DNA from: Halonotius aquaticus
GTDB taxonomy: Archaea; Halobacteriota; Halobacteria; Halobacteriales; Haloferacaceae
Assembly: GCF_003605575.1 (NCBI RefSeq)
Contig: NZ_QKNY01000004.1
Location: 62,001-126,000, forward strand
Direction of reading: 5' to 3'
DNA: 64,000 nucleotides
The translations under genes and the position numbers were made by a program. Each line of letters starts with the position of its first letter. Position 1 is the first letter of the stretch. Below are positions 4,548-23,553 of this stretch, in pieces. The notes below the pieces were generated by a model, which searched no databases, was not told where the DNA came from, and saw only the letters and a list, made by a program, of their open reading frames with translations.

Positions 4548-5726
4548 CTACGCCACCTGCAGTCCGGTCATCACGCCGTAGCCGACGACAAACGACAGCC
4601 CAAGCGAACCGGCCCACGCACCGACGGTGACCAGTAGTTTTCGGGGGTCGACTGCCGACCCCCCACCGACGGCTGCACCGCCACCGACGATCCCGCTGAC
4701 GATGATCTCGTTGAACGACACCGGCACGCCCAGCAGTACTGCCACCTGTGCGATCAGAAACGCTGGGACGAGGGCGGCGATCGACCGCCGGGGGCCGAGA
4801 TCGGAGTAATCCTGGGCGAGTGATTTGATCATCCGCGGCGCGCCGAGCCACGACCCTGCGAGGATGCCAACCCCACCACCAGCAAGGATGATCGCCGGCG
4901 AGAGAGCACCGACTGTCGAAAACAGCGGCAGCAGCGGCCCGACCGCGAGCCCGACCTGACTACCGCCCGCCGAAAAGGCGACCAGCGAGCCCAACACGAG
5001 CAGCACGTGTCGCAACCCGCCGGCCTCATCGCGATTGATATCCCACCGAACGACCGCGGCGATCCCCACGGCAACCACGGCGGCAACGCCGGCGGTTGTG
5101 CCCAGTCCGCTGCCGACCTGTCGGCCGACCGCGCCCGTGAGCGACCCCATCGTGCCGCCGGGGCCGAGAAACGCAAACTCGACGTTTGCGAGGACGACGC
5201 CGACGATCGCCGCCAACACGGGGACGGTGACCGTCTCGGGGGCGTCTGGTCGTGGCAACACGCTGGCGATCCCGTAGGCGATCCCGCCGCCGACGACCGG
5301 CGTCAACACCCAGACGGCACCGACCTGCTGGTAGGTTGCCCAGGCGGGCGCGCCCCCAATCGCCAGCCCGACGCCGACGACTGCGCCGGTGACGGTGAAG
5401 GCGGTGGCGATCGGATACCCCGTGCGGATGCCGACGGCCATCAGCCCAGCCCCGACGAGTAAGATCACGATGACGCCGACAGCGGGGATCTCAACGCCGC
5501 CGATCAGCCCGCTGCCGACGGTCGCCGAGACGTTGGCGCCTTGGGTGATCGCGCCGGCAAAGCCGAGCAGGCCGACGATGAAGGCGGCCTGCATCGTCGG
5601 GATGGCGTTGGCGCCGACCGCCGGCGCGAAGGGGGTCGCCCCGCTTGAGCCGGCTCCGATCACCCACGCCATGAATAGACTGGCGAGTCCAGCGACGAGA
5701 AACAACGCGATAGCTGCAAGTTCCAT
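4548..5726 (-). CDS. PiT-like anion permease with degenerate signature motifs
   Basis: The 392-residue protein has about ten hydrophobic helices in two related halves, the architecture of the PiT (PHO4) phosphate transporter family. The family hallmark GANDVAN is not intact: the first half has VGANAIPTMQ and QGANVSATVG, and the second half has FSAGGSQVGLAVGPL, so the conserved Asp and Asn are replaced. The family also includes sulfate permeases of the CysP type. The gene is the last of a minus-strand operon with two YeeE/YedE halves and a rhodanese-MBL enzyme, 34 bp behind the nearest. I infer transport of a sulfur oxyanion rather than phosphate; phosphate remains possible. Confidence 0.75.
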   Translation of the reverse strand: MELAAIALFLVAGLASLFMAWVIGAGSSGATPFAPAVGANAIPTMQAAFIVGLLGFAGAITQGANVSATVGSGLIGGVEIPAVGVIVILLVGAGLMAVGIRTGYPIATAFTVTGAVVGVGLAIGGAPAWATYQQVGAVWVLTPVVGGGIAYGIASVLPRPDAPETVTVPVLAAIVGVVLANVEFAFLGPGGTMGSLTGAVGRQVGSGLGTTAGVAAVVAVGIAAVVRWDINRDEAGGLRHVLLVLGSLVAFSAGGSQVGLAVGPLLPLFSTVGALSPAIILAGGGVGILAGSWLGAPRMIKSLAQDYSDLGPRRSIAALVPAFLIAQVAVLLGVPVSFNEIIVSGIVGGGAAVGGGSAVDPRKLLVTVGAWAGSLGLSFVVGYGVMTGLQVA

Positions 5727-5760
5727 GAGAGTATGATGAGAGAATCGTGTGGTTCAGCCG

Positions 5761-6237
5761 TTAGTCCGCACTCGCGGGTGCGGCATCGGACTGTGCGCTG
5801 CGACTCCGCCAGACGCCCTGGGCGTAGGCGCCGATGAACATGCCACCGATCGCCCACAGGATCGGAAAGTTGCCGACGCCGAGGCTGGCGTACCCCGCGC
5901 CCGGACAGATCCCGGACAGCCCCCAGCCGACGCCGAAGATGCCACCGCCGATCAACACGTTGCGATCAAAGGATTTCAGCCGGCGACCGAAGCCGTCCCC
6001 GGTCAGTGGTGCGCGGTCAAATAGCCGTGGGACGACGATGTAGGCAAGCCCGGTGACCGCCGCGCCGCCGAACATGACAAACAGCAGCCCGAAGTCCTCG
6101 AACTGCAGGAAGTCGAGCACGACCTCCGGGCGGGCCATATGGCTGTAGCCCAGCCCGAACCCGAAGATCAGCCCGCCGACGAGGATCAGCGGCATGAACA
6201 GGGGATGGCGGCCCTCGTTGCCTGCGGCGGTGCTCAT
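5761..6237 (-). CDS. YeeE/YedE-type half-channel (DUF6691-like)
   Basis: The 158-residue membrane protein has four hydrophobic segments. Its hallmark is GVGWGLSGICPGAGYASLG near residues 105-123, the conserved Cys-containing loop of YeeE/YedE (TsuA-like) proteins, which carry thiosulfate or related sulfur species across the membrane. ATG 6237 overlaps the stop of the upstream partner by four bases, so the two halves are translationally coupled and probably form one two-half transporter. Downstream is the PiT-like permease. The frame continues upstream but only as shadow. Confidence 0.85.
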   Translation of the reverse strand: MSTAAGNEGRHPLFMPLILVGGLIFGFGLGYSHMARPEVVLDFLQFEDFGLLFVMFGGAAVTGLAYIVVPRLFDRAPLTGDGFGRRLKSFDRNVLIGGGIFGVGWGLSGICPGAGYASLGVGNFPILWAIGGMFIGAYAQGVWRSRSAQSDAAPASAD

Positions 6238-6725
6238 GGCGTCACCCCCAGTGCGGCGACGACCTGAGCGGTGATGATCGCGGTCAACAGGAAGGCGAGC
6301 ACCCCCGCGATCGACGTTTTCGACGCCGAGCCGACGCCACAGACGCCGTGGCCGGAGGTACAACCTTTCCCGATCCGGGTGCCGACCCCGACGAAGATCC
6401 CACCGAGGAGGAGTCGCCACGGGGCCACGTCGGTCGTCCACGCGCCGCCCTGAAAGACGACGGCGTAGACGGCCGCCCCGAGGATGATCCCCAGCGTGAA
6501 CACGAGCCGCCAGTCGCGGGAGCCGGCGTATCTGGCGAACCGCGAGCGATCGGAGACGTACGACAGCGTCGACTCAAGAAACGTGCTCGCCCCGGCGTTG
6601 ATCGCGGTGCCGGCGTAGATCGCGGCCGCGCCGAGTCCGACGAACAACCCACCGATCGCATACCGGCTGATCCCGTTGGGGAACAGCTCAGCGACCGTCT
6701 GCAGGACGAGGAGGTCGGCGACCAT
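6234..6725 (-). CDS. YeeE/YedE-type half-channel
   Basis: This 163-residue membrane protein is the second half of the pair. Its conserved loop, GKGCTSGHGVCGVG near residues 119-132, carries the Cys residues that line the sulfur path in YeeE-type channels. Its helices resemble the N-terminal half of full-length YeeE, and the overlapping downstream gene resembles the C-terminal half. It starts 8 bp after the stop of the rhodanese-MBL gene, so the three are one transcript. Expected role: import of thiosulfate or sulfide-level sulfur to be handled by the enzyme encoded upstream. Confidence 0.87.
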   Translation of the reverse strand: MVADLLVLQTVAELFPNGISRYAIGGLFVGLGAAAIYAGTAINAGASTFLESTLSYVSDRSRFARYAGSRDWRLVFTLGIILGAAVYAVVFQGGAWTTDVAPWRLLLGGIFVGVGTRIGKGCTSGHGVCGVGSASKTSIAGVLAFLLTAIITAQVVAALGVTP

Positions 6726-6733
6726 CGGTCGGC

Positions 6734-7933
6734 TCAGTCCCCCGCCATCGACTCTTGGCTGGCCGCGCAGTTGTTCGGGCCGAGCTCAAGGGTGAATGCT
6801 TCCTCATCGTCGGCCGTCTGCTGGCCGAGGTTGGTTTCGATGATATCGATGTAGTTGGCCGGTCGGGGCGGCATGTCCGCCAAGATCTCGTCGACGAACT
6901 CGTCTTTCGGCAGCGTTAGGGGGTCCATCTCCTCGACGAGATCGCCGATCGGCGCGGTGTAGGTGCCGTCGGCGGCTGGCTCGGCGGCGTCACTGAAGTG
7001 TGCCCCGCCGATCAGCGTCTCGTCGGGCAGCGTCAGCACGCGCTCTTGCAGTGAGTCGTAGAGCATCCGGGCGGCGTCGGGCGCGCCCTCGTCGCCCTCT
7101 TCGAGATCCGGCCGGGCGACACTCTCGATGAATAGCCCATCGCCGGTCGCCAGCAGCGAGTCGTCGACGAGATAGGAGGTCATCCCGGTGGTGTGGCCCG
7201 GGGTGGCGACCGTCTCGATGGTCGCCTCGCCGACTTGGAACTCGTCGCCATCTTCTGCGGTCGTCAGCTCGTCGGCGTAGGTGACGCCACGGTCGACGGC
7301 CGCCGCCGGGATGACGCCCTCGACGCCCTCGTCGTCGAGATCGCGAACGCCGCTGATGTGGTCGGCGTGGATGTGCGTGTCGAGCGCGTATTTCAGGTCG
7401 ACGCCGAGCTCGTCGGCGTCGTCGAGATAGCGGTCGGTGAACGCGCGTAGCGGGTCGATGACGGCTGCTTCGCCGTCATCGTAGACGAAGTAGCCAAGAC
7501 AGCCCGAGGAGGGGCGTTGATACTGCAGGAGGGTGCCGGCTCCATCGTAGTCGGTGACCTCGACGGCGTCATAGAGCCGTGCCCAGCCGTTCATCCCGTC
7601 TTCGAGATGGATCGCGTCGTAGTCGCGTTCGAGGAGCGTGCCGGCGACGTACTCGCTGGCACCACCCTTCGCACAGAGCACGACGAGCTCGCGGTCGTCG
7701 GGGATCTGTTCGAGCACGTCGTCGACCTCCTCGTCAAGGAACTCGAAGTACGGGATGTTGATCGACTCGACGCTCTCGTCGTCGATGTGCCACTCCTCGT
7801 ATTCGGAGGCCATCCGCACATCGAGGATGGTGACCGCCTCGCCGTCGTCGATCCGGCCTTTCAGCGCTTCCGGCTCGATACTAGTCACGTCTGCATCTGG
7901 GGTTGGAAAGTCGTCAGCGTCCATGTGAGACAT
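6734..7933 (-). CDS. rhodanese / MBL-fold persulfide-dioxygenase-like fusion
   Basis: The 399-residue protein is a fusion. An N-terminal rhodanese domain (about 15-125) has its active-site Cys in VVLCAKGGAS near residue 86. A metallo-beta-lactamase domain (about 130-330) has THIHADHISG near residue 186 plus later His and Asp ligands (TPGHTTG, ATGDGLF). MBL enzymes of the ETHE1/CstB group oxidise persulfides to sulfite or thiosulfate; here the rhodanese leads rather than trails. ATG 7933 follows a GTG at 7936 in frame. The TATA-like CTATACAAA (minus strand, 7964-7972) puts the transcript start near 7942. It is the first gene of a four-gene sulfur operon. Confidence 0.9.
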   Translation of the reverse strand: MSHMDADDFPTPDADVTSIEPEALKGRIDDGEAVTILDVRMASEYEEWHIDDESVESINIPYFEFLDEEVDDVLEQIPDDRELVVLCAKGGASEYVAGTLLERDYDAIHLEDGMNGWARLYDAVEVTDYDGAGTLLQYQRPSSGCLGYFVYDDGEAAVIDPLRAFTDRYLDDADELGVDLKYALDTHIHADHISGVRDLDDEGVEGVIPAAAVDRGVTYADELTTAEDGDEFQVGEATIETVATPGHTTGMTSYLVDDSLLATGDGLFIESVARPDLEEGDEGAPDAARMLYDSLQERVLTLPDETLIGGAHFSDAAEPAADGTYTAPIGDLVEEMDPLTLPKDEFVDEILADMPPRPANYIDIIETNLGQQTADDEEAFTLELGPNNCAASQESMAGD

Positions 7934-7952
7934 CACTCTCTACAGGGTGGGG

Positions 7953-7991
7953 ATACAAAAGAGTTTGTATAGTAATTCCCAATATATACAA
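7953..7991 (-). promoter_or_regulatory. promoter with inverted repeat of ATACAA/TTGTAT half-sites
   Basis: Three copies of one half-site lie here: ATACAA 7953-7958, TTGTAT 7965-7970 and ATACAA 7986-7991. The last two form a perfect inverted repeat TTGTATA-N13-TATACAA (7965-7991). It overlaps the presumed TATA element of the rhodanese-MBL operon, as expected for a repressor site. The protein that binds is unknown. Confidence 0.5.
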
Positions 7992-8135
7992 TATAGATGG
8001 CTGCACCACTCGCGGCGAAACAGGCCGTTAGCACGGCGAATTCACCAGATAAATGGCTAAATATCCTTTTCACGTGCGAGATGTTGCAGGGCGCGGCCAC
8101 AGTAATTGTTTGAGAGATGCACACTAATCGGTATT

Positions 8136-8178
8136 CTTTTATATCCTGCTCCAATATTGTAGGGTAACTCCAATACAA
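8136..8178 (+). promoter_or_regulatory. tusA-dsrE promoter with dyad over the start site
   Basis: TTTTATATC (8138-8146) is a clear TATA element that predicts a start near 8167 and a leader of about 28 bases. An imperfect dyad TTGTA-N12-TACAA (8157-8178) straddles that start; its right arm is the ATACAA half-site seen in neighbouring promoters. The spacing differs from the dyad at 7965-7991. Confidence 0.5.
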
Positions 8179-8194
8179 ACGGAGTCCACACAGC

Positions 8195-8440
8195 ATGAGC
8201 GTAAACTACGACGTTACCGAGACGCTTGACGTGAAGGGTGCATCGTGTCCAATGCCGGTTGTCAAAACCAAATCCGCCATCGACGACGTGCCGGAAGGCG
8301 GCGTCCTTGAGGTGCTGTCGACCGACAAGGGCAGCATGAGCGATATCGACGGCTGGGCGGCTGGCACCAGCGGCGTCGAACTCCTCGACCAGGTTGAGGA
8401 CGGCGACGTGTACAAACATTACGTCGAGAAGACGGCCTAA
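8195..8440 (+). CDS. tusA: TusA-family sulfurtransferase
   Basis: This 81-residue protein carries the family motif GASCPMPVVKTK, with the persulfide-bearing Cys at residue 18, and has the full length of a single TusA domain. TusA proteins relay sulfane sulfur between a donor such as rhodanese and an acceptor such as a DsrE-type protein. The next gene, 1 bp away, is exactly such an acceptor. The pair is transcribed away from the sulfur operon at 7933. A role in cytosolic sulfur relay or detoxification is more likely here than tRNA thiolation, given the context. Confidence 0.93.
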   Translation: MSVNYDVTETLDVKGASCPMPVVKTKSAIDDVPEGGVLEVLSTDKGSMSDIDGWAAGTSGVELLDQVEDGDVYKHYVEKTA

Positions 8441-8441
8441 C

Positions 8442-9014
8442 ATGAGCACAGAGCCATCCAGTACCGCTGACGGTACCCAGCCGAGTGCCGCCGAGCTGCA
8501 GGCCCGCGTCGAGGAGTTAGAGGAGACGGTTGCCGCCCTTGAAGCCGACGACGAGCAACAGAAGATGACGATCGTGGCGACACAGGGCACCTTCGATATG
8601 GCCTATCCGCCGCTCATCTTGGCGAGCACCGCTGCCGCCTTCGGCTGGGATGTCGTCGTCTTCCATACGTTCTGGGGGCTCGACATTCTCCACGAGGAGA
8701 AGTCACAGAACCTCCAGCTGTCGGCGGTCGGCAACCCCAACATGCCGATGCCGAACGCGCTGGCTGCCCTCCCGGGGATGGATCGGCTCGCCACGCGCAT
8801 GATGCAGTCCCGGATCGACGACAACGGGACGGCGACGATCGAGGAACTGATCGACCTCTCCTTGGAGCAGGGCGTTGAACTCCAGGCCTGTCAGATGACC
8901 ATCGAGCTGATGGACTACGACGAGGACGACTTCTACGACGATGTGACCGTCGGCGTCGGCGCGGCCACCGCCCTCCAACACATGGCCGAATCAGATATTC
9001 AACTGCTGGTCTAA
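8442..9014 (+). CDS. DsrE/DsrF-like sulfur-carrier protein (DsrE2 type)
   Basis: The 190-residue protein starts at ATG 8442, one base after the tusA stop. A short N-terminal coiled coil (about 18-42: LQARVEELEETVAALEAD) precedes a DsrE-like domain with IVATQGTFDMAYPPLILAS and an ELQACQMTIELM segment holding the only clearly conserved Cys, near residue 150. Family members bind sulfane sulfur on that Cys and exchange it with TusA. The extra N-terminal helix and the membrane-friendly PPLILASTAAAFGWDVVVF stretch are typical of the larger DsrE2 group. Co-transcription with tusA supports the relay. Confidence 0.88.
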   Translation: MSTEPSSTADGTQPSAAELQARVEELEETVAALEADDEQQKMTIVATQGTFDMAYPPLILASTAAAFGWDVVVFHTFWGLDILHEEKSQNLQLSAVGNPNMPMPNALAALPGMDRLATRMMQSRIDDNGTATIEELIDLSLEQGVELQACQMTIELMDYDEDDFYDDVTVGVGAATALQHMAESDIQLLV

Positions 9015-9192
9015 TTCGGGTACTGCGCTTTTGCCAGCGGTTGCAACAGGATCGCCGCCGCCGGGAGACCGACTATTTTGCGCTGCGGTTCCAAACGGCG
9101 TCGCTATTTGATCACTGTCTCGAAAAAAGGCGACTACTGCGTGTCTGAACCGCTTCTGTTCTTCACCTCGACGACAGCTGTGCGCCAACAGC

Positions 9193-10437
9193 TTAGTCGT
9201 CAGCCGGCGACAGCCGATCCGCGGTGGCGACGGTGTCTGCGTCGGCGATCCCGGCCGCGCTGAACTCATCGACGAACGCATCGAGCAGTTCGGGATCGTC
9301 GGCGCCGATAAGCTCCTGCTCTGCGGTCGTCGACTCGGCGTCGACGCCCAACCGCTCGGCGACCAGATCGCTCGTCGATTCGGCCATCTGCCGGTAGGTC
9401 GTGAGCTTGCCACCGACCGCGCTGACGAAGTTTTCGACCCCGTCGTCCGCGTGGTCGAGCCGGAAGAAGTCCCGCGAGACATCGCGGCCGTCACCGGCCC
9501 CGTCGTCGGGCGCGTACAACGGCCGAACACCCCACCACGTGCGTCGTTCCGGCGCGTCCTCGACGGGTGGCAACAGCTCCGCGCTCTTGGTGCGGAGTTC
9601 GTCGATCTCCGCGGGATCACGGTCGTAGTCGTCCGGGTCGTCGATCGGCACGCTCGTCGTCCCGAGGATCACCTCCGATTCGTGTGGGACGACGATGTCG
9701 GCGTTGCTCGGTTCGCGGGCGCGGTTCAACACCACGTCGAGCTCGTCGTACTCGACGGCGGTCATCGCCCCCCGCGAGAGGAACATATTGATGTCGACGC
9801 CAGCCATCGCCCCGATCTTGCCGGCCCACGGCCCGGCGGCGTTGACGACGTACTCGGCGCTGATCTCGTCGTTGACCATCCCGCCGACGGACACACTGGT
9901 GATCCGGCCGTTCTCGACGGTCATCTCTTCGACCGGCGCATGCGGGTAGATGCTCGCCCCGTGCTCGCGGGCGTCCGCTGCGTTCATCGCAACCAGACGG
10001 GCGGGATAGGTGATCGCATCGGGGACGGTGAAGGCCCGCTCGACATCGTCAGGGAGTCCCGGCGCGCGTGCCTTCGCCTCGTCACCGTCGATGACCTCGG
10101 TTGGAATCCCGATATCCTCGCAGGCCTCGCGCTTCCGATCGAAGTACGCGGGGTCGTCGTCGCCGAGCTGGACGAACAGCCCACCGGTCTCCCGTACCGC
10201 CTCGCCGGCGATCTCTTTGAGAATCCGGTTTTCGGCGATACTCTCCTCGGCACTCGGGCGGTCAGTTTCGGCGTAGCGCGCACCGCTGTGGAGCAGCCCG
10301 TGTGACCGGTCTGTCGTCCCGCTGTCGAGGCCATCGCGGTCGACAAGCGTCACATCGACCCCGCGCAGTGCGAGGTCGCGGGCGATCCCGGCTCCGGTCG
10401 CGCCGCCACCGATGACCAGCACTGTTGTTTGTATCAT
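9193..10437 (-). CDS. GlpA-like FAD-dependent oxidoreductase, short form
   Basis: The 414-residue flavoprotein begins with the dinucleotide motif VLVIGGGATGAGIARDLALRG and carries GLLHSGARYA and VGGKLTTYR, typical of the DAO/GlpA glycerol-3-phosphate dehydrogenase group. It stops soon after the flavoprotein core, so the C-terminal [2Fe-2S]-type domain of full GlpA is absent, and no glpB, glpC or glycerol kinase is nearby. I found no frameshift that would restore the missing domain. It lies between two sulfur gene groups, so the substrate may not be glycerol phosphate. ATG 10437 lies inside a perfect palindrome at 10429-10441. Confidence 0.82.
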   Translation of the reverse strand: MIQTTVLVIGGGATGAGIARDLALRGVDVTLVDRDGLDSGTTDRSHGLLHSGARYAETDRPSAEESIAENRILKEIAGEAVRETGGLFVQLGDDDPAYFDRKREACEDIGIPTEVIDGDEAKARAPGLPDDVERAFTVPDAITYPARLVAMNAADAREHGASIYPHAPVEEMTVENGRITSVSVGGMVNDEISAEYVVNAAGPWAGKIGAMAGVDINMFLSRGAMTAVEYDELDVVLNRAREPSNADIVVPHESEVILGTTSVPIDDPDDYDRDPAEIDELRTKSAELLPPVEDAPERRTWWGVRPLYAPDDGAGDGRDVSRDFFRLDHADDGVENFVSAVGGKLTTYRQMAESTSDLVAERLGVDAESTTAEQELIGADDPELLDAFVDEFSAAGIADADTVATADRLSPADD

Positions 10438-10470
10438 ACAATTCTATCTTGTTTATACAGCCCTAAAATA
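10429..10470 (-). promoter_or_regulatory. start-codon palindrome and TATA of the GlpA-like gene
   Basis: The 13-bp palindrome TTGTATCATACAA (10429-10441) covers the start codon of the minus-strand gene. CTATTTTAG on the minus strand (10462-10470) is the best TATA element and gives a start near 10440. The palindrome arms are the same half-site as at 7953-7991. A protein bound there would block transcription start or early elongation. Confidence 0.5.
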
Positions 10471-10611
10471 GTTTCTTCGGGATGAATGCGGCAATGTAGC
10501 GAATAGTGTGTTCACAAAATATACAATACAGATGCCGACACCGAATGGACAGCACGCGTTTGTCGTTCGACTGTTTGCCTCGGCGTTCCTTCCAACTGAG
10601 AACTCGATCAC

Positions 10612-10619
10612 CCATTTAT
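10612..10619 (+). promoter_or_regulatory. TATA box for the CoA-disulfide reductase-like gene
   Basis: CATTTATG is 25-26 bp before a start at about 10642, just ahead of ATG 10645. It decides against the longer frame beginning at 10618, which would start inside the TATA element. A lone ATACAA half-site lies upstream at 10521-10526. Confidence 0.55.
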
Positions 10620-10644
10620 GCGGTCTTGTGCCGTTCACACAGCT

Positions 10645-12336
10645 ATGACACCGCAGTATGTGATCGTCGGTGGCAACGCTGCCGGGATGAGCACCGCGAC
10701 GCGGCTGCGACGACTCGATGAGACCGCCGAGATCATCGTCCTCGAACAGGGCGAACACGTCTCGTATGCGAGCTGTGGACTACCCTACCACCTGAGCGAC
10801 ACCGTCCCCGAGGAGAACCTCGCGGTGATGGGCGTCGAGCAGCTGAGTGCCGCCTTCGATCTCGACATCCGCACGGGCGTCACGGCGACCGATATCGATC
10901 CGGACGCAAAGACCGTCTCGGTGGTCGACGCCGACGGCGAGTCGATGACGATCGCCTACGATGATCTCGTCGTCGCAACTGGAGCCGAACCGCTCGTCCC
11001 GCCGATGTTCGACCTCGACGAGCTGGCGCACTGTCACACCCTCCGCACCGTTTCGGATGCGACAGGCATCCGCGAGGAGGTCGCCGACGCCGAGCGCGCA
11101 CTCGTCATCGGCGGCGGCTACATCGGGCTCGAAGTCGCCGAAAACCTCCACGAGGCCGGCCACGATGTGGTCGTCGCGGAACTGCTCGACCAGGTGATGC
11201 CGAACGCGCTCGGCCCGGAGCTGGCGGCGATGGTCGAGTTGCACCTCCGCGAGCAGGGGATCGATCTTCGGCTGGAGACCGGCGTCGACGAGCTGACCGA
11301 ACCCGGCGACGAGACAGTCGTCGCCACGATGGACGACACCGACCACACCTTCGATCTCGTTGTCGTCGCCACCGGTGTCACCCCGCGGACGGAACTGGCC
11401 GAATCGGCAGGCGTCGAGTTACACGACAGCGGCGCGATCACTGTCGACGAGCGAATGCAAACCTCGGTCGAGTCGATCCACGCGGTCGGCGATGCGGCCG
11501 CCCCACCGGCAGCCCGTGCCGACGGGAACGCGTGGGTACCGCTCGGTGGCCCGGCCAACCGCATGGGTCGCGTCGCGGCCAACGATATCGCGGGCCACGA
11601 CGACCAACTCGATCCCGTTTTGGATACGGCGATCGCCAAGGTGTTCGACCTCGATGTCGGCACCGTCGGCGACACCGCCGCGACGCTCGACGAACGGGAA
11701 CAGTCCTATGAGGTGATCTACACGAGCCAGCCGGATCACGCCGAATACTACCCCGACGCGACCGAGATCCAGTTTAAACTCCTCTTCGATCCCGACGACG
11801 GGACGCTCTTTGGCGCACAGGCCATCGGCGAAGACGGCGTCGACAAACGAACCGACGTGTTGGCGACGGCTATCGTCCACGAAGACACCGTTTTTGACAT
11901 CCGGGATTACGATCTGGCGTACGCCCCACCATACTCGGCCGCCAAGGATCCGGTCAACATGCTGGGGATGATCGGCGCGAACGTCGTCGAGGGCGTCGCC
12001 GACATCGTCCATCTCGATGAGTTCCTCGCGCGTGAGGACGACGCGACCGTCATCGACACTCGCCCACCCGAGATGCGCGAGGCCCAGGGCTGGATCGACG
12101 GCGACGAGAACGTTCCGCTCGGCAAGCTTCGGGAGTGGGCTGCCGACGCCGACCCGGACGAGGAGGTCTTCACCTACTGCAAGATCGGCAAGAGCTCCTA
12201 CATGGCGACCCGGATTCTCGCTGAACACGGCATCGAGGCGAGCAGCCTCACCGGCGGCTACTACCGCTACGAGGCCGCGGTAGACAGCGACGAAGCCGAC
12301 GCCGCCGACACCGAACCGGTGACAGCAGAACAGTAA
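10645..12336 (+). CDS. CoA-disulfide / persulfide reductase-like flavoprotein with rhodanese tail
   Basis: The 563-residue protein has the order of coenzyme A disulfide reductases and NADH-dependent persulfide reductases: an FAD motif VIVGGNAAGMS at the N-terminus, redox Cys44 in SYASCGLPY, an NAD-binding motif LVIGGGYIGLEVAE near 155, a dimerisation domain, then a rhodanese domain (about 460-545) with Cys512 in TYCKIGKSSY. Such CDR-rhodanese fusions reduce persulfides, polysulfides or CoA-disulfide with NAD(P)H and release sulfide. It complements the persulfide-oxidising MBL enzyme of the same locus. The tail after the rhodanese domain is a short acidic stretch. Confidence 0.92.
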   Translation: MTPQYVIVGGNAAGMSTATRLRRLDETAEIIVLEQGEHVSYASCGLPYHLSDTVPEENLAVMGVEQLSAAFDLDIRTGVTATDIDPDAKTVSVVDADGESMTIAYDDLVVATGAEPLVPPMFDLDELAHCHTLRTVSDATGIREEVADAERALVIGGGYIGLEVAENLHEAGHDVVVAELLDQVMPNALGPELAAMVELHLREQGIDLRLETGVDELTEPGDETVVATMDDTDHTFDLVVVATGVTPRTELAESAGVELHDSGAITVDERMQTSVESIHAVGDAAAPPAARADGNAWVPLGGPANRMGRVAANDIAGHDDQLDPVLDTAIAKVFDLDVGTVGDTAATLDEREQSYEVIYTSQPDHAEYYPDATEIQFKLLFDPDDGTLFGAQAIGEDGVDKRTDVLATAIVHEDTVFDIRDYDLAYAPPYSAAKDPVNMLGMIGANVVEGVADIVHLDEFLAREDDATVIDTRPPEMREAQGWIDGDENVPLGKLREWAADADPDEEVFTYCKIGKSSYMATRILAEHGIEASSLTGGYYRYEAAVDSDEADAADTEPVTAEQ

Positions 12337-12415: not shown

Positions 12416-12991
12416 ATGGCAGCAGAATCACCGCCTGAGGGGTGGGCCGACAGCATTAGACAGCAGCGCGAGGCAAAGCGTGACCACTTCAAACGGTCAC
12501 CGCGGTCGCCGCTACCCGACGCCCAGCGCGGCGCGTCGTTTCCGGGTCTCGCCTACTACGAACCCGATCCAGCCTATCGCTTCGTGGTGCCGCTGGAGGA
12601 ACACGAGACGAAAGAATCGGTCACCGTCGAAACGACAGCCGACGGCGAACAGACGTATCTCCGCTGGGGTGCGTTCAGCTTCGAGCTTGATGGTGAAACG
12701 TATACCCTGCAGGCGTACCGACCGGATCGGGAGGCAGATCGGTTCTGGGTGCCGTTCCGCGACGCAACGAGCGGGGAGACGACCTACGGAGCCGGTCGGT
12801 ATCTCGACCTCGAACCCGACACCCACCGCGTCGACGACGGGTGGATTCTCGATTTCAACGCGGCGTACAATCCGACGTGTGCCTACAACCACGCCTACGA
12901 GTGTCCGATGATTCCACCCGAAAACTGGCTCGATGTCCGCATTGAGGCCGGCGAACAGGATTTCCCGGGTGAACCTGCCGATCCCCGCTGA
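12416..12991 (+). CDS. DUF1684 family protein
   Basis: The 191-residue soluble protein has the DUF1684 pattern: an early DSIRQQREAKRDHF helix, a beta-rich core with FWVPFRDATSGETTYGAGRYLDLE, and the closing signature LDFNAAYNPTCAYNHAYECPMIPPEN. The Cys, Asn and Pro residues of the last motif are near-invariant in the family, whose biochemical role is unknown. The gene is independent, with its own TATA element, and ends 12 bp before a convergent transporter gene. No link to the sulfur genes beyond proximity. Confidence 0.88.
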   Translation: MAAESPPEGWADSIRQQREAKRDHFKRSPRSPLPDAQRGASFPGLAYYEPDPAYRFVVPLEEHETKESVTVETTADGEQTYLRWGAFSFELDGETYTLQAYRPDREADRFWVPFRDATSGETTYGAGRYLDLEPDTHRVDDGWILDFNAAYNPTCAYNHAYECPMIPPENWLDVRIEAGEQDFPGEPADPR

Positions 12992-13003: not shown

Positions 13004-13885
13004 TTAGACAACGACAAGCCACGCAGCGACGACGGCTGCCGCGCCGCCGAGTGAACTCACGGCGGCGTGGGTGCGCAGCCGATCTTGGAAGCGATGGGCG
13101 TCGCTGTCGCCTGCGGCGTCGACGGGGCACGTGTCACTGCCGGCGGTACACTCCGGCAGCAGGTCGACGGCGACATGCAGGAAGACGCCAGCCCCGAACC
13201 CAAACAGGAGGCCACGTAGCATCGGCGACGGCGACAACCCGGTCATTCCGACCGGCAGCGCGATCAACCCGACAGCCGCCGCCGGCAACAGGAGTGCGAC
13301 GACCGATCGATCACGGTCAGCCAGCCGCCGGGCGGCGGCGTAGCCGGCCGGGGCCTTGTGTGAGACGAGAGCCACGCCGAGAATCGATGTCAGCGACGGC
13401 ATCGCCGTGTAGATCGCCCCGATGATCGCACCCGCTGCTAACGCGTGGACGGTCAGCTCTGCGGCCGTCTGTTCGATCGGGAGGTTGAGATGCGTGAGGC
13501 GGTGACCGAGTGCGTGGCCGACGTAGCCGGTGAGGAAGCCGGCCGCGATCCCAAGGCTTCCGAACCGGCCGTGCTGGCCGAGTGCCTGCGGAATCAGGAA
13601 CAGCGCGGCACTGGTCACCATCGCGCCGCTGGCGAGGCCGTACCCCCAGACAGTTTCGACGGGCCGGGCCGTCTGGGCTGTTCGCGCCCCCAGCGGCGCG
13701 CCGATTGCCATCGCGGCGAAGGCAACCCACGAGATCGCCAGGAGCTTCCATGTTACCCCGACGCTGTAGGCGAGCACGGAGAGTCCCCCAAGTGCGACAA
13801 CGCCGGTGATCCCAACTGCACGTTCAGCAGTGGCTTGCGTTCGATGCGCTGTCTGCACCGACGATAGTATTTGCTGTATTGTCAT
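13004..13885 (-). CDS. ZIP-family metal transporter
   Basis: The 293-residue membrane protein has about eight helices. The ZIP signature lies in two stretches: ELTVHALAAGAIIGAIYTAMP and, one helix later, ALVSHKAPAGYAA, with the His residues that bind metal in helices 4 and 5. A further HVAVDLLPE follows near residue 240, as in other ZIPs. A loop with paired Cys (ECTAGSDTCPVD) precedes the last helix and could bind metal. Substrate is probably Zn, Fe or Ni-like divalent ions. Its promoter holds an inverted repeat, and a nickel regulator gene lies directly upstream. Confidence 0.85.
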   Translation of the reverse strand: MTIQQILSSVQTAHRTQATAERAVGITGVVALGGLSVLAYSVGVTWKLLAISWVAFAAMAIGAPLGARTAQTARPVETVWGYGLASGAMVTSAALFLIPQALGQHGRFGSLGIAAGFLTGYVGHALGHRLTHLNLPIEQTAAELTVHALAAGAIIGAIYTAMPSLTSILGVALVSHKAPAGYAAARRLADRDRSVVALLLPAAAVGLIALPVGMTGLSPSPMLRGLLFGFGAGVFLHVAVDLLPECTAGSDTCPVDAAGDSDAHRFQDRLRTHAAVSSLGGAAAVVAAWLVVV

Positions 13886-13922: not shown

Positions 13923-14041
13923 TTCTTGTGACGAGATGGATGATTCCACGAGAAACGGCATTAGACGAAATAAAGGCTTATGAAAGCTATTCATTGACTG
14001 CTGCTCTGTAACTATCAGCGCAGCACCGTCGACACATCTCT

Positions 14042-14072
14042 ATTAGTATTTCAAATTATGTGCAATACTAAT
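14042..14072. promoter_or_regulatory. perfect 9-bp dyad, 13-bp spacer, after nikR
   Basis: ATTAGTATT (14042-14050) and AATACTAAT (14064-14072) are exact reverse complements separated by 13 bases, so arm centres are 22 bp apart. It begins two bases beyond the nikR stop. It may be a metal-regulator operator acting on the ZIP gene, or an AT-rich hairpin ending the nikR message. The 22-bp spacing equals two helical turns, as in the E. coli NikR operator. Confidence 0.45.
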
Positions 14073-14074
14073 GC

Positions 14075-14464
14075 TCAGTCATCTCGGATGATCATGAGCT
14101 TCACCCGGTTTACCCCGTCGAAATCACGAAGGCGGTAGGTGAGTTCCCGTACCTGTCGGCCAGTGCCGTGACAGAACAGGGATTCAAGACACCACTCTCC
14201 CTGATGTGTGTGACTCGTGTTGAGGATTACGTCCTGGTATGCATGTTGCACCCCGTGGAGTTCCTCGATCACCTCGTGGTGGCGGTAGTCAAAGGCAATA
14301 AGTGCGATCACATCTCCGCTGAGCGTCTCCAGTTGGGAGTGCGATTCAATATACTCCTGCATCGCCTCGCGTACCGCCCGGGATCGGTTATCCAGTCCTT
14401 CCTCCTGCCAGACCTGGTCGAACTCCTCGACAACGCTATCAGGGATATTGAAGCTCGTTCGCAT
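14075..14464 (-). CDS. nikR: nickel-responsive regulator NikR
   Basis: The 129-residue protein has a ribbon-helix-helix DNA-binding domain (MRTSFNIPDSVVEEFDQV) followed by the ACT-like metal domain. All four high-affinity nickel ligands of NikR are present with correct spacing: His74, His85, His87 and Cys92 (QHAYQ...SHTHQGEWC). ATG 14464 is chosen over an upstream in-frame ATG because the family starts here and an AGGTGAT-type ribosome site precedes it. It is divergent from the NicO-like gene, its expected target. It represses or controls nickel transport in response to Ni(II). Confidence 0.95.
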   Translation of the reverse strand: MRTSFNIPDSVVEEFDQVWQEEGLDNRSRAVREAMQEYIESHSQLETLSGDVIALIAFDYRHHEVIEELHGVQHAYQDVILNTSHTHQGEWCLESLFCHGTGRQVRELTYRLRDFDGVNRVKLMIIRDD

Positions 14465-14563
14465 ACGATCACCTCGGATAGCTGGACACAAGAGCCTGCG
14501 TATGATGTTCCCCCCGATCAGGTATTAACAACCGTTATTCGGCGTTCTCGCCGAGCGACGAAT

Positions 14564-15397
14564 ATGACGATGATCCCAGGAGACGCCGTCGGCCTGCTAC
14601 TCGGTTCGGTCGCACTCGGTGCTGTCCACGGTATGGAACCCGGTCACGGATGGCCTGTCGCTGCCTCCTATGCGTTGGATCAGACGAACAAGTGGTTCTC
14701 CGGCTTGGCGGCGAGTTTGCTTATCGGCGTCGGGCATCTCATCAGTAGCCTCGCCATGGTCGGCGTGTTCTTCTATGCGAAATCCTACTTCAGTCTCACA
14801 CAAGTTAACGATCCACTCACCGTGTTTGGTGGTGTCCAGATCGGTGGCCCGGTCAGTCTGGTTGCAGGGGTGCTTCTCATTGGCCTTGGGATTCGAGAGT
14901 ACAAACATGGTCACTCTCACGGCAGCAGCGATCACGAACACGCCCACGACGACCATTCTTCCCACGAGTCGGGGAGCCATGCCGGAGCCGACCATAGCCA
15001 CGACACGCATCCTCAGTCATCAGTTGACGACGGACTCGGCTCTCGGCTAACACGCGCCCTTCCATCCATCGGTGGAGACGCACACAACCACGATGCCTCT
15101 ACTGAGGTTGCTGAACGGGGGCTGTTTGGGATTGCGTGGTTTGCCTTCCTGCTTGGATTTGCCCACGAGGAGGAGTTCGAGATTATCGCTCTCTGTGCTG
15201 GCTCGAATTATTGTCTCTCATTGATGAGCGCGTACGCGATAACCGTCATCTGTGGTATCGTCGGCCTCACGATGCTGCTGATTGCGGGCTATCAACACCA
15301 CGAGGAGACCGTCTCGCAGTACACGCCGTATCTACCGGTTGTTTCCGCTGCTGTGCTCACCATCATGGGTCTGGGCTTCATCATCGGCGTGTTCTGA
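14564..15397 (+). CDS. NicO/RcnA-type nickel-cobalt transporter
   Basis: The 277-residue membrane protein has about six helices. The first carries GAVHGMEPGHGWPVAASYA, the His-containing signature of NicO-type transporters. A long His-rich cytoplasmic loop (about residues 105-165, with many HD, HS and HEH pairs) would bind Ni or Co, and a later FAHEEEFEIIALCAG helix holds another metal site. Its divergent position to nikR suggests nickel control. Direction (uptake or efflux) is not settled by sequence. No urease or hydrogenase gene is in the window. The frame is open further upstream to 14168, but that part is antisense to nikR. Confidence 0.9.
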   Translation: MTMIPGDAVGLLLGSVALGAVHGMEPGHGWPVAASYALDQTNKWFSGLAASLLIGVGHLISSLAMVGVFFYAKSYFSLTQVNDPLTVFGGVQIGGPVSLVAGVLLIGLGIREYKHGHSHGSSDHEHAHDDHSSHESGSHAGADHSHDTHPQSSVDDGLGSRLTRALPSIGGDAHNHDASTEVAERGLFGIAWFAFLLGFAHEEEFEIIALCAGSNYCLSLMSAYAITVICGIVGLTMLLIAGYQHHEETVSQYTPYLPVVSAAVLTIMGLGFIIGVF

Positions 15398-19350: not shown

Positions 19351-19373
19351 TCATGATCCCCTACCTGAGGGTG

Positions 19374-19811
19374 ATGAGTGACGCTGATTCGATCGAGGAG
19401 ATCCGCGAACAGAAGCGGCAGGAACTGATGGAAAGCCTCCAAGACGGCGAGCCGTCGAGTGGTGCCGATACTGATGGCCGTCCAGACACCGCCCTGGAGA
19501 CACCGATCCACATCGACGGCGTTGACCACTTCAACGAGGTAACAGCGCAGTACGATGTCGTCCTCGTCGACTTCTATGCGGACTGGTGTGGCCCGTGTCA
19601 ACAGCTCGAACCGATCGTCGAGGAGGTCGCTGCCACCACCGATGCCGCTGTCGCAAAGGTCGATATCGACCGCCATCAGCGGCTTGCCCAACAGCACGGC
19701 GTCCAAGGCGTGCCGACGATGGTCGTCTTCAGCGACGGAAAGCCGGCTGATCGGTTGGTCGGTGTCAAGAGTGCGGCCCAGCTGACGAACGTTATCGACT
19801 CCTATCGGTAA
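19374..19811 (+). CDS. trxA: thioredoxin
   Basis: The 145-residue protein is a thioredoxin with the active site YADWCGPCQQLEP (Cys72, Cys75) and the cis-Pro loop GVQGVPTMVVF. An acidic N-terminal extension of about 45 residues (IEEIREQKRQELMESLQDG) precedes the fold, as in many haloarchaeal thioredoxins. With the reductase at 18263-19174 it forms a dithiol-reducing system beside the persulfide enzymes. Its stop abuts the stop of the convergent gene at 19812. Confidence 0.93.
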   Translation: MSDADSIEEIREQKRQELMESLQDGEPSSGADTDGRPDTALETPIHIDGVDHFNEVTAQYDVVLVDFYADWCGPCQQLEPIVEEVAATTDAAVAKVDIDRHQRLAQQHGVQGVPTMVVFSDGKPADRLVGVKSAAQLTNVIDSYR

Positions 19812-20623: not shown

Positions 20624-21028
20624 TTAGGATTCCACTTCGGCTGTCGGCGGCGTGACATCGGCGTACTTCTCCTCGAACTCCTGGATCAACTGCCCCGTCT
20701 GTGCGTACCAGTCGTTGAGGAGTCGCTGCATCTCGTTGGCGACAACCTCAGGATCGGTTGGGACGTAGACATGGTAGTAGCCGCCGGCGTCGTAGTTGAT
20801 CTGTTCTTTCTCCAGGAACCCGGTCTGTAGTAGTCGCTGTACCGATCGGTACGCTGTCGACCGTTCTCGATCGACAGCGTCGGCGACGTCATCGACTGTC
20901 AGTGGTTCCTCGGCCGTCACGAACGCCTGAAAGCACTCCCGATCAAGCGGCTTCAGGCCGTGAAAACAGGCCAGGAGATCCTCACATCGCATATCTGACC
21001 GGAGTTGTTCGGCCATTGAATCAACCAT
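20624..21028 (-). CDS. winged-HTH regulator with three N-terminal Cys (TrmB-like)
   Basis: The 134-residue protein has a winged helix (about 30-85) with LTVDDVADAVDRERSTAYRSVQRLLQTGFLEKEQ, resembling TrmB and related haloarchaeal regulators, then a dimerising C-terminal helix. Three cysteines, Cys15, Cys21 and Cys32, cluster just before the recognition fold (MRCEDLLACFHGLKPLDREC). I infer thiol-based sensing, perhaps of persulfide or sulfide, because TauE and other sulfur genes flank it. Two palindromes lie between its TATA element and start codon, as expected for autoregulation. In-frame ATGs at 21016 and 21058 are alternatives. Confidence 0.82.
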   Translation of the reverse strand: MVDSMAEQLRSDMRCEDLLACFHGLKPLDRECFQAFVTAEEPLTVDDVADAVDRERSTAYRSVQRLLQTGFLEKEQINYDAGGYYHVYVPTDPEVVANEMQRLLNDWYAQTGQLIQEFEEKYADVTPPTAEVES

Positions 21029-21029
21029 T

Positions 21030-21087
21030 GTAGTAACCACTACTTGCTGTGACAGCAAAAGTGTTGTGCATCGATTACAATTCTATA
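21030..21087 (-). promoter_or_regulatory. tandem palindromes and TATA of the HTH gene
   Basis: GTAGT-AACC-ACTAC (21030-21043) and the perfect 15-bp palindrome TTGCTGTGACAGCAA (21044-21058) sit back to back directly before the start codon at 21028. TATAGAA on the minus strand (21081-21087) predicts a start near 21059, so the palindromes cover +1 to about +30. This is the classic layout for autorepression. Confidence 0.6.
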
Positions 21088-21165
21088 CACAGTCGCTGTG
21101 ATCGCCGGCGGCGGTCGTTGTCGATACCAGTTCATCGTCACCACTGTCATTTGCCGTCCGTCTTT

Positions 21166-22197
21166 TTACTCCACGGCTGGTGAGGCGGTTCGGCTCTCCT
21201 CCCGTAGTGCGGTGATGCTGCTGTAGACGACCGCCCCACTGACCAACAGCGCGGAGCCGAGGATCAATACCAGGCTCACACGGTTGAGGATCGGCATCTC
21301 GTAGACTTTGCCGATTTCACGGACAGCCACCGCCAGCGCGCCGCCGAGCAACATCAGCCCGAAGTAGACCTTGATGTCGTCTTCGTTGACGATGCTGGTC
21401 GCCGCCGAGCCGATCCGCGCGCCGAAGGCACTCCCGGCCAACAGCGGGACGACGATCGAGAGATCGACGCCGCCGTCGAGCGCGTAAAGGAAGCTCCCCA
21501 GCCCACCGGAGAAGACGATCTCGAAGAGATCCGTCCCAACGGCGATCGGCACCGGGACACCGATGAGATAGAACAACGCCGGCATCCGGATGAAGCCGCC
21601 GCCAACACCGAGGAAGCCCGACAGCAACCCGGTCGCAAAGGCAACCCCGAGGATCATCCACAGCGAGACGGTGACACCGCCCCGGAGGCTGATCATCGGC
21701 GGCACGTTGTACGACTGGATCGTTTTGGCGATATCCGGGATGTCGTCGGCATCAGCCGCCGCCTCGGCGGCATCGTGGTCGATACCGCCGTCGCTGTCGC
21801 CTTTGACGGCTTCGTAGGTGACGAACGCGCCGATCCCGCCAAGCAGGAAGACGTAGGTCACGCTGATGATCGAGCCGGCAAGCCCCAGCGCTTCGAGATA
21901 GACGACCGTCTGTTTGCCGACCTCAATGCCGGCGGTTGTGCCGACGATCATCAACAGCCCGAGTTTGTAGTCAACCTGCCCGAGATCCCGGTGTTTCAGC
22001 GTTGCGATCACGGAGGTACCGAACACGAACGCGAGGCCGCTACCGACGGCCACACGCGTCGGATACCCCATGACCAGCAGCGCCGGGGTGACAAGGAAGG
22101 AGCCACCCATCCCGAAGAAGCCAAACAGCACGCCGATCAGGAGGCCGAACCCGACGAACAGCCCGACCATCGCCATACTGAGCCCGAGTAGCTCCAT
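21166..22197 (-). CDS. TauE/SafE-family anion exporter
   Basis: The 343-residue membrane protein has about eight to nine helices in two related halves, each opening with a Gly-rich family signature: FGFFGMGGSFLVTPALLVMG in the first and SGFLGVGGGFIRMPAL in the second. The family exports sulfite, taurine-derived sulfonates or related anions. A hydrophilic loop of about 45 residues (EAVKGDSDGGIDHDAAEAA...) lies between the halves. Its ATG at 22197 is one base from the stop of a 49-residue gene, so the two are probably one transcript. Sulfite export would balance production by the MBL enzyme (inference). Confidence 0.9.
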   Translation of the reverse strand: MELLGLSMAMVGLFVGFGLLIGVLFGFFGMGGSFLVTPALLVMGYPTRVAVGSGLAFVFGTSVIATLKHRDLGQVDYKLGLLMIVGTTAGIEVGKQTVVYLEALGLAGSIISVTYVFLLGGIGAFVTYEAVKGDSDGGIDHDAAEAAADADDIPDIAKTIQSYNVPPMISLRGGVTVSLWMILGVAFATGLLSGFLGVGGGFIRMPALFYLIGVPVPIAVGTDLFEIVFSGGLGSFLYALDGGVDLSIVVPLLAGSAFGARIGSAATSIVNEDDIKVYFGLMLLGGALAVAVREIGKVYEMPILNRVSLVLILGSALLVSGAVVYSSITALREESRTASPAVE

Positions 22198-22198
22198 G

Positions 22199-22348
22199 TT
22201 ATGTGTTCCTGAGTCGGTTGACGACGCGCTGGCCGAGCACATCCTCGACGACCCCGTAGACGCCATAGAGAATGATCGCCTCTGCCAGCACCGCGCCGAT
22301 CAGTATCGCGCCGTCGATGCTAGCCGACAGCGAGCCAGCCTCAATCAT
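22199..22348 (-). CDS. 49-residue single-helix partner of TauE
   Basis: ATG 22348 to TAA 22199 encodes a small protein with a short polar N-terminus, one hydrophobic helix (AILIGAVLAEAIILYGVYGV, about residues 14-33) and a basic C-terminus (GQRVVNRLRN). The next gene starts one base after its stop, so translation is tightly coupled to TauE. From memory, similar short proteins (DUF7512-like) occur beside sulfur transport genes in haloarchaea; that needs a database check. It may be a regulatory or assembly subunit of the transporter. Confidence 0.7.
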   Translation of the reverse strand: MIEAGSLSASIDGAILIGAVLAEAIILYGVYGVVEDVLGQRVVNRLRNT

Positions 22349-22713
22349 CGGTCTGTGCCCCGTTGGTTCGTAGTCTTGTGTGGTTCATACTGTTCTGCTC
22401 AGTAGCTCGTAGTCGGAGCAGCGTGATAATAGTTTTGGGTTTACTAAACAATATTACTAACGCGGCGGCGACGGCTATCCCACGTGAATATCTCCATACG
22501 TTATGGGAATACAGCCGTCGCGGCGTATCGCAAAAATCGACCGACAAACCGCGGCACACTCTGTTACGCGCGCTGATACATTTACGAACGTCACCGATAC
22601 TTTTCGGCAGTAGTTGGTAACTTCGCGCATCGACCGATTGAGATGGCGACTCGTAGCAGCAATAGTATTGATTAATAGAAACAATATTAAGGGCAGAGGG
22701 TGTACCTGCTGGT
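22349..22713. other. AT-rich divergent intergenic region with hairpin
   Basis: No coding frame is supported. An inverted repeat, GCGACGGCT (22468-22476) and AGCCGTCGC (22513-22521), is extended inward by CCCA/TGGG and could fold in RNA. AACAATATTAC (22447-22457) just upstream resembles a TATA element that would start a transcript close to this structure, so a small RNA is possible. TACTG-N7-CAGTA (22388-22404) is a weak dyad before the minus-strand genes. Confidence 0.4.
22683..22691 (+). promoter_or_regulatory. TATA box for the double UspA gene
   Basis: AATATTAAG centred near 22687 predicts transcription from about 22713, at ATG 22714, so the message is leaderless. Confidence 0.5.
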
Positions 22714-23553
22714 ATGCGCGCCATCTATGCAACCGATCTGTCGGCGGCCAGCGAGGCGGCGATCCACAACGAAACCTGCCTGGAGTGTCTCGAACGCATC
22801 GGCGTCGAGGAGATCCATCTGGTCACGGTCATCCCCTCAAACATGCACGCCGGCATGCCGGGGATGAACTTCGAGGAGCGGCGGGAGGAGGGGCTCAACC
22901 GGTATGAGCGTGTCATGCAAGACGCCGGCTTCAGCACCGACACCCACGTGGTGCGGGGGACGCCCCACCGCCGAATCAACGGGATCGCCGACGCCGAGCG
23001 GGCCGACCTGACGATCGTCGGCTCCCGCGGACAAAGCCCCCTTGCCAACCGGGTTCTGGGATCGACCGCGCGCAACCTCTCCCGGACGACGGTCGTCCCG
23101 CTGTTAGTCAACCGGATCGAACGCGAGGCCGACGATCCCGACGTGCTCCGAGAACACCTCTTCCAGCGCGTTCTGTATGCGACGGATTTCTCGGAGAACG
23201 CCGATCGCGCGTTCAACGCGTTTTCCTATCTCCGCCATGCGACCCAGGAGGCGACGCTCGTACACGTCGAATCGCCGAAGGAACCCGACAACGACACCGA
23301 CGCCACCGACCAGTTGGCGACACTCGAAGGCCGACTCGACCAGTGGGATATCGACACCGACACCCAGGTTCGGTACGGTGATCCGGCCGAAGAGATCCTC
23401 GAAGCCGAAGCCGAGGTGACGCCGACGACGATCCTGCTTGGCTCTCGCGGCCAGAGTCGCCTCCGGCGGCTACTGATCGGCAGCGTCTCCGAGACGATTA
23501 TCGCCCAGGCGTCAAGTAACGTCTACATGGTGCCGCCGCCGCGAACAGCCTGA
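22714..23553 (+). CDS. tandem universal stress protein (two UspA domains)
   Basis: The 279-residue protein is two UspA domains in a row (about 1-140 and 148-276). Each carries the ATP-binding pattern G-2x-G-9x-G-S/T: VGSRGQSPLANRVLGSTARN in the first and LGSRGQSRLRRLLIGSVSET in the second, so both probably bind nucleotide. Tandem Usp proteins can act as stable intramolecular dimers. It is monocistronic with its own TATA element and may be a general stress protein rather than part of the sulfur set. Confidence 0.92.
   Translation: MRAIYATDLSAASEAAIHNETCLECLERIGVEEIHLVTVIPSNMHAGMPGMNFEERREEGLNRYERVMQDAGFSTDTHVVRGTPHRRINGIADAERADLTIVGSRGQSPLANRVLGSTARNLSRTTVVPLLVNRIEREADDPDVLREHLFQRVLYATDFSENADRAFNAFSYLRHATQEATLVHVESPKEPDNDTDATDQLATLEGRLDQWDIDTDTQVRYGDPAEEILEAEAEVTPTTILLGSRGQSRLRRLLIGSVSETIIAQASSNVYMVPPPRTA

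Follow-up and report, generated by a model that had tools for sequence, protein, structure and literature searches.

Gene clusters for sulfide and persulfide homeostasis are known from bacteria as the cst/yrkD type. In Bacillus licheniformis, the yrkD cluster combines a CstR-type repressor with DsrE, rhodanese, persulfide dioxygenase (PDO), TusA, TauE, thioredoxin and SQR (PMC9918477). From haloarchaea, the TrmB family regulator OxsR of Haloferax volcanii was reported to have a single cysteine (C24) and a CG-rich motif, and HVO_1360, which belongs to arCOG02242 like OxsR, has cysteines C15 and C21 with no target reported (PMC9426492). HVO_1360 is not mentioned beyond that paper in the open-access literature searched. 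Here, a cluster of sulfur genes of Halonotius aquaticus was analysed in a stretch of 64,000 nucleotides (NZ_QKNY01000004.1, positions 62,001 to 126,000; the window) from an assembly of 2.47 Mb. The region probably encodes a regulon for the homeostasis of sulfide and persulfide. It would be the archaeal counterpart to cst/yrkD, with a TrmB-family regulator that has two cysteines in place of CstR. No description of this haloarchaeal cluster was found in the open-access literature, a search that left most subscription journals outside its coverage.

The sulfur core and its conservation

The original prediction had grouped eight genes at 4548-12336, in two divergent blocks, into one sulfur module. 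All eight were found intact, in place and with the families named (Table 1), and the divergent arrangement holds for the pair formed by the rhodanese-MBL fusion (RhoMBL) and TusA as well as for the pair formed by a GlpA-like flavoprotein and a CoA-disulfide reductase-rhodanese fusion (CDR-rhodanese). Starts were corrected for RhoMBL (7924, conserved M(D/N)ADDF), DsrE2 (8442) and CDR-rhodanese (10645), and the genes for the two YeeE halves overlap by 10 bp.

Conserved gene neighbourhood had been set beforehand as the test on which the module would stand or fall. For this, 60 neighbourhoods of ~19 kb each around DsrE2 in other genomes of the order were collected, of which 59 were usable; all were selected for holding DsrE2, their source genomes are related to each other, and the neighbour counts are approximate because genes were called by a simple script. 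TusA adjoins DsrE2 in 59/59 loci, YeeE half a and half b are present in 56 each, RhoMBL in 54, and the PiT-like permease lies within 7 kb in 23, so the clustering is not due to chance. The core normally shows the same divergent gene order as in the window. These results support the view that the locus is one module, kept throughout the order, that handles persulfide and sulfur oxyanions.

The proteins of the core also keep their catalytic residues. In alignments of relatives, TusA C18 (43/43), DsrE2 C150 (61/61), RhoMBL C88 (57/57), C122 and C129 of YeeE half a (34/34) and C113 of half b (37/37) are invariant, as are H188, H190, H193, H248 and H313 of RhoMBL, which make up an HxHxDH metal site plus further ligands, among 57 sequences. 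DsrE2 matched the NCBIfam DsrE2 model at 3e-48, under the model cut-off, and RhoMBL did not reach the cut-off of bifunc_ST_SDO (Blh; 41.8 bits against 625). The PiT-like permease shows weak similarity to the sulfate permease CysP (NCBIfam, 5.7e-13, under the model cut-off) and is a probable sulfur-oxyanion transporter.

The limits of the module had to be redrawn. Its genes at 4548-12336 were rightly identified, but the cluster does not end at 12336, and more of its genes were located at 19.35-23.55 kb. Two of these, for a TrmB-like regulator and for an exporter of the TauE/SafE family, are each found near DsrE2 in 35/59 loci and lie ~9 kb away from the sulfur cluster in the window (20.6-22.2 kb). 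In the congeneric genome G148, the regulator, TauE, the universal stress protein (Usp), PiT, YeeE, RhoMBL, TusA, DsrE2 and CDR-rhodanese are all on one contig, and no flavoprotein is among them. As G148 keeps the genes from PiT to CDR-rhodanese together with regulator, TauE and Usp, the window can be regarded as a rearranged version of this block. Thus, the idea of one module stood in its conserved core and gained a shared promoter element, whereas the flavoprotein is not supported as a component, CDR-rhodanese is accessory, and the original prediction had missed the regulator, the operator and the exporter TauE.

Table 1. Genes and candidate operator sites of the sulfur region, in coordinates of the window
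Feature	Position	Strand	Basis or score
PiT/PHO4-family permease, putative sulfur-oxyanion transporter	4548..5726	-	Pfam PHO4 1.8e-43
YeeE/YedE half b (DUF6691), C113 invariant	5761..6243	-	domain match and alignment
YeeE/YedE half a (Sulf_transp), C122 and C129 invariant	6234..6725	-	domain match and alignment
RhoMBL, persulfide-dioxygenase-like	6734..7924	-	domains; start MDADDF by homology
Candidate operator, RhoMBL promoter	7963..7998	+	matrix score 50.1
Candidate operator, TusA promoter, ATATTG-N11-CAATAC	8154..8176	+	~42 nt from first base to TusA ATG
TusA sulfur carrier, CPMP motif, C18 invariant	8195..8440	+	Pfam TusA 1.8e-19
DsrE2 sulfur carrier, C150 invariant	8442..9014	+	Pfam DrsE_2 9.3e-50
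Short GlpA-like FAD oxidoreductase, judged a bystander	9193..10437	-	GlpA model positions 1-394 of 530
Degenerate operator-like site, 1 bp longer, upstream of CDR-rhodanese	10501..10529	+	matrix score <=1.8
CDR-rhodanese (CoA-disulfide/CoA-persulfide reductase with C-terminal rhodanese)	10645..12336	+	PDB matches
DUF1684 protein, CX7C pair, 3' of CDR-rhodanese in the genus	12416..12991	+	domain match
Candidate operator between ZIP-like gene and + strand membrane-protein gene	14037..14072	+	score 25.0
Thioredoxin of the extended block	19353..19811	+	operator at 8/22 thioredoxin genes in other loci
TrmB-like single winged-helix regulator, C15 and C21 invariant, candidate persulfide sensor	20626..21028	-	near DsrE2 in 35/59 loci
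Candidate operator, regulator's own promoter	21057..21092	-	score 22.1
TauE/SafE sulfite exporter family	21166..22197	-	Pfam TauE 5.2e-39; 35/59 loci
DUF7512 small protein, upstream partner of TauE	22206..22348	-	recurrent neighbour
Candidate operator upstream of DUF7512-TauE	22423..22458	+	score 17.8
Candidate operator upstream of Usp, sites on both strands	22656..22696	.	scores 17.8 and 7.6
Usp, conserved neighbour	22714..23553	+	Pfam Usp 1.5e-37

Candidate operator, regulator and proposed function

The intergenic region between RhoMBL and TusA contains two conserved elements. The candidate operator is AT-rich and has the form TTTGCATAGTAnTTCC-N8-CACAATACTA; a matrix of 36 positions was derived from the RhoMBL-side promoters of 58 loci, none of them from the window or its genus. 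Upstream of TusA, the form RTATTGTGYRRTAGCTCCAATAC is kept in many loci, and the RhoMBL matrix gives a score of 7.9 for a site that overlaps it. The highest value in 20 Markov-simulated windows was 7.3. Five sites of the window score above 12, compared with a mean of 0.1 (maximum 1) for column-permuted matrices, which preserve base composition. When the RhoMBL promoters were masked in 60 foreign loci, 71 sites were detected versus 0.9 with permuted matrices (maximum 4). They lie upstream of SQR (12/16), thioredoxin (8/22), CDR paralogues (5/13), TauE (11/36) and TusA (14/50), and upstream of other genes in 24/898 cases.

In its own genome, a simplified pattern (10-N spacer, at most two mismatches) was used instead of the matrix and gave 29 matches versus 6 for the reversed pattern. 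Among them are a thioredoxin gene and a TusA-SQR operon (C15:29986) with an SQR similar to mitochondrial SQOR. A dihydrolipoamide-dehydrogenase-like gene that is also among the matches (C16:17258), an exported protein (C18:116263) and a bile-acid-symporter-like membrane protein (C10:588560) carry operator-like sites and are unexpected possible targets. The strong site at 14037-14072 lies between a ZIP-like gene (13004-13885, - strand) and a + strand gene (14168-15397) for a His-rich membrane protein with no Pfam match, which may be a further member of the regulon.

The candidate regulator is a protein of 134 amino acids with one winged helix of the TrmB type and no ligand domain (best Pfam match PF01978). 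C15 and C21 are invariant in 36/36 sequences. Its best PDB match is 3r0a of Methanosarcina mazei, which was assigned to arCOG02242 together with OxsR (PMC9426492). Judged from cysteine positions and family, it would be the orthologue of HVO_1360. The regulator occurs in 115/122 near-complete genomes, and all seven genomes without it also lack DsrE2; this co-absence would have a P of ~1e-7 if the genomes were independent, and some of the seven are relatives. A second copy, 65% identical, is encoded in the same genome away from sulfur genes (C4:49789-50178).

We infer that the TrmB-like protein binds the operator. Most likely, it senses persulfide or thiol oxidation by way of C15 and C21 and acts at the shared AT-rich site. 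The broader proposal, for which we see an even chance, is that a TrmB-family CX5C winged helix is the haloarchaeal persulfide sensor and controls through this one operator a scattered regulon of RhoMBL-YeeE-PiT, TusA-DsrE2, TauE, SQR-TusA, thioredoxin and CoA-disulfide reductases. A different, unlinked regulator might bind the operator instead, with the TrmB-like gene as a merely co-located target. This alternative, which we hold to be rather unlikely, fits with the regulator being near DsrE2 in 35/59 loci and not in all, and with its own promoter, which lacks a site in the other loci; it is at odds with the co-absence of regulator and DsrE2, and the conserved neighbours include no second family recognisable as DNA-binding.

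For the function of the regulon, we infer substrates and direction of flux as follows. The YeeE halves and the PiT-like permease would import thiosulfate or related sulfur anions. Rhodanese, TusA and DsrE2 would pass sulfane sulfur to one another; its source would be thiosulfate, or sulfide after oxidation by the SQR, whose gene lies at another place in the genome. The MBL domain of RhoMBL, a predicted persulfide dioxygenase, may oxidise persulfide towards sulfite, which TauE could export, and the CoA-persulfide reductase-rhodanese may give a reductive outlet in this genus. The two-cysteine TrmB-like protein would control these genes through derepression or activation.

Several points weigh against a persulfide regulon under the TrmB-like protein. 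Only in this genome does the regulator's own promoter carry the operator (0/35 elsewhere), and TauE, the regulator and PiT are within range in only part of the DsrE2 loci. The link from regulator to operator was drawn from position and co-absence among genomes that are not independent. The dioxygenase assignment of the MBL domain comes from sequence alone, and the reading as a whole was built on sequence. Moreover, cysteines of the OxsR family can also sense hypochlorite (PMC9426492).

This last point leads to the possibility that the regulon answers general oxidative or hypochlorite stress, in which case the regulator would sense oxidants in the manner of OxsR and the sulfur genes would serve thiol repair. 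The regulator shares its family, TrmB, with OxsR, whose targets include genes of the thiol relay, among them one for a DUF1684 protein (PMC9426492), and the operator precedes genes for thioredoxin and Usp. However, the CG-rich motif and single C24 of OxsR (PMC9426492) differ from an AT-rich operator and two invariant cysteines, and the targets are mostly SQR, TusA, RhoMBL and TauE, which makes this explanation unlikely. We regard it as similarly doubtful that the genes assimilate thiosulfate as a sulfur source and do not detoxify. In bacteria, YeeE takes up thiosulfate together with a partner protein (PMC11073785), and the permease is CysP-like; yet export by TauE, an SQR with the same operator and the persulfide-dioxygenase-like MBL domain point to disposal. 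Sulfide/persulfide homeostasis is thus retained as the preferred function.

Flavoprotein and CDR-rhodanese

The flavoprotein between DsrE2 and CDR-rhodanese had been suggested as a possible unrecognised component of the module. Its label as GlpA-like was partly appropriate: it matches the GlpA model (TIGR03377) over positions 1-394 of 530 with 457.9 bits (curated cut-off 552.8), but the C-terminal domain of GlpA is missing. It keeps an FAD domain together with the stretches RY, WGVRPLY and GGKLTTYR, all of which align with solved glycerol-3-phosphate dehydrogenases/oxidases; these stretches presumably hold the substrate-binding residues. GlpB and GlpC are not found alongside it in the window. 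The genome has a gpdABC set at C16, which is followed by a second short GlpA-like copy.

The neighbourhood check that the core had passed was failed by the flavoprotein. The sulfur core was beside none of its homologues in ~95 loci, looking ~1.5 to 10 kb to each side, and no operator was detected upstream of 78 homologues. It has no conserved neighbourhood of its own either, as among 16 loci of 20 kb no neighbour recurs in more than four; a few homologues adjoin gpdBC. In G148 and on contig 33 of genome G146, DsrE2 and CDR-rhodanese are separated by 190 bp with nothing between, and genome G024 has the flavoprotein in the absence of DsrE2 and regulator. Short GlpA-like genes are common in haloarchaea and occur also in halophilic Rhodothermota; the named genomes with close homologues are mostly haloarchaea. 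Those of Rhodothermota (L177, L179, L184, L189 and L190) branch within the clade of haloarchaeal genes, which suggests that lateral transfer took place between these groups.

The genome has just two exact copies of the 16-mer ATATACAATAYAGATG. One is in the RhoMBL promoter and the other lies between the genes for flavoprotein and CDR-rhodanese, where the operator-like site at 10501..10529 overlaps it. Control of the flavoprotein by the operator through this 16-mer was considered and is not supported, given the low matrix score, the longer spacing and a site that fits the CDR side and has its orientation; similar sequence precedes CDR in genomes that have no flavoprotein there. Because the gene has no sulfur neighbours elsewhere, is absent from the sister junction and is present in G024 without DsrE2 and regulator, we conclude that the flavoprotein, which resembles the glycerol-3-phosphate dehydrogenase family, is a bystander here. 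The simplest account is an insertion in this lineage; the intergenic DNA is too diverged for exact borders. That it supplies the sulfur module with electrons or drains them from it, as its place inside the cluster and the restricted 16-mer might suggest, is very improbable against the evidence above.

CDR-rhodanese matches CoA-disulfide reductases over its full length, with the flavin-site cysteine (SCGLPYH) and a C-terminal rhodanese cysteine (YCKIGKSS). The best PDB match was 3icr (4e-123), and CoA-persulfide reductase 8a56 was also matched. As a core member it was rejected, since relatives at E <= 1e-90 were present in only 4/146 genomes of the order; close relatives occur in 3/5 genomes of the genus, accompanied by DUF1684 and a ZIP-like gene. 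It is a lineage-restricted accessory added to the module. The G148 gene (L235 8804-10475) aligns as three pieces in different frames and looks frameshifted or mis-assembled. G146 has two CDR-rhodanese genes (L141 and L145), 94% and 90% identical to that of the window, and its copy on C28 adjoins TrxR, thioredoxin, regulator and a TauE aligning in two pieces. A DUF1684 family protein of H. volcanii with a Cx7C motif (HVO_1043) is an OxsR target (PMC9426492), and the homologue at 12416-12991 hints at cross-talk with oxidant defence.

Comparison with described systems

For this widespread haloarchaeal cluster, an operator, a candidate sensor and a regulon can now be named, so that the proposal becomes directly testable. 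A misleading component, the flavoprotein, is removed from the module, and HVO_1360-type regulators, which had no reported targets, gain a possible function.

Individual components resemble proteins and gene sets known from elsewhere. CDR-rhodanese is alike in full length, including the rhodanese cysteine, to the CoADR-RHD/CoA-persulfide reductases 3icr, 3nta and 8a56, and no difference was apparent in the sequence comparison. As in the archaeon Metallosphaera cuprina (dsrE3A-dsrE2B-tusA; PMC4175335), DsrE and TusA carriers are encoded together; there, they are flanked by a heterodisulfide-reductase-like complex, and here by RhoMBL and YeeE. With the YeeE/TsuA-YeeD system for thiosulfate uptake (PMC11073785), the locus shares a YeeE with conserved cysteines beside a TusA-family gene, whereas YeeE is split into two half-size genes here.

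The regulator resembles OxsR in its single winged helix and N-terminal cysteine. OxsR, however, carries a single cysteine, uses a CG-rich motif and acts in hypochlorite stress, in contrast to the AT-rich candidate operator of the sulfur genes. The OxsR paralogue HVO_1360 is reported to have C15 and C21 (PMC9426492), at the same positions as the window regulator.

Compared with the cst operon of Staphylococcus aureus (PMC9774590, PMC9918477), a dithiol regulator and sulfurtransferase and PDO-rhodanese functions are common to both. CstA is a fused rhodanese-TusA-DsrE there, while TusA and DsrE2 are separate here, and the fusion here is an N-terminal rhodanese followed by MBL.

Closest in its set of components is the yrkD cluster, which shares DsrE, TusA, rhodanese, PDO-like MBL, TauE, thioredoxin and SQR and likewise encodes its regulator within the cluster. 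TusA, DsrE, rhodanese and the PDO-like MBL are encoded together, as in clusters of the cst/yrkD type, and TauE in the window and SQR-TusA2 at C15:29986 appear to share the operator. Unlike in yrkD, SQR-TusA is located elsewhere in the haloarchaeal genome, the split YeeE and the PiT-like permease belong to the core, and no NreBC was seen among the conserved neighbours. The haloarchaeal regulator is TrmB-like (PF01978) and not of the CsoR/CstR type, and no CsoR-like gene was noted among the conserved neighbours of DsrE2 loci. As its regulator comes from another family, the module is a functional analogue of cst/yrkD and not a member. If the proposal is true, a TrmB-type sensor would be the archaeal solution to the task of bacterial CstR and SqrR.

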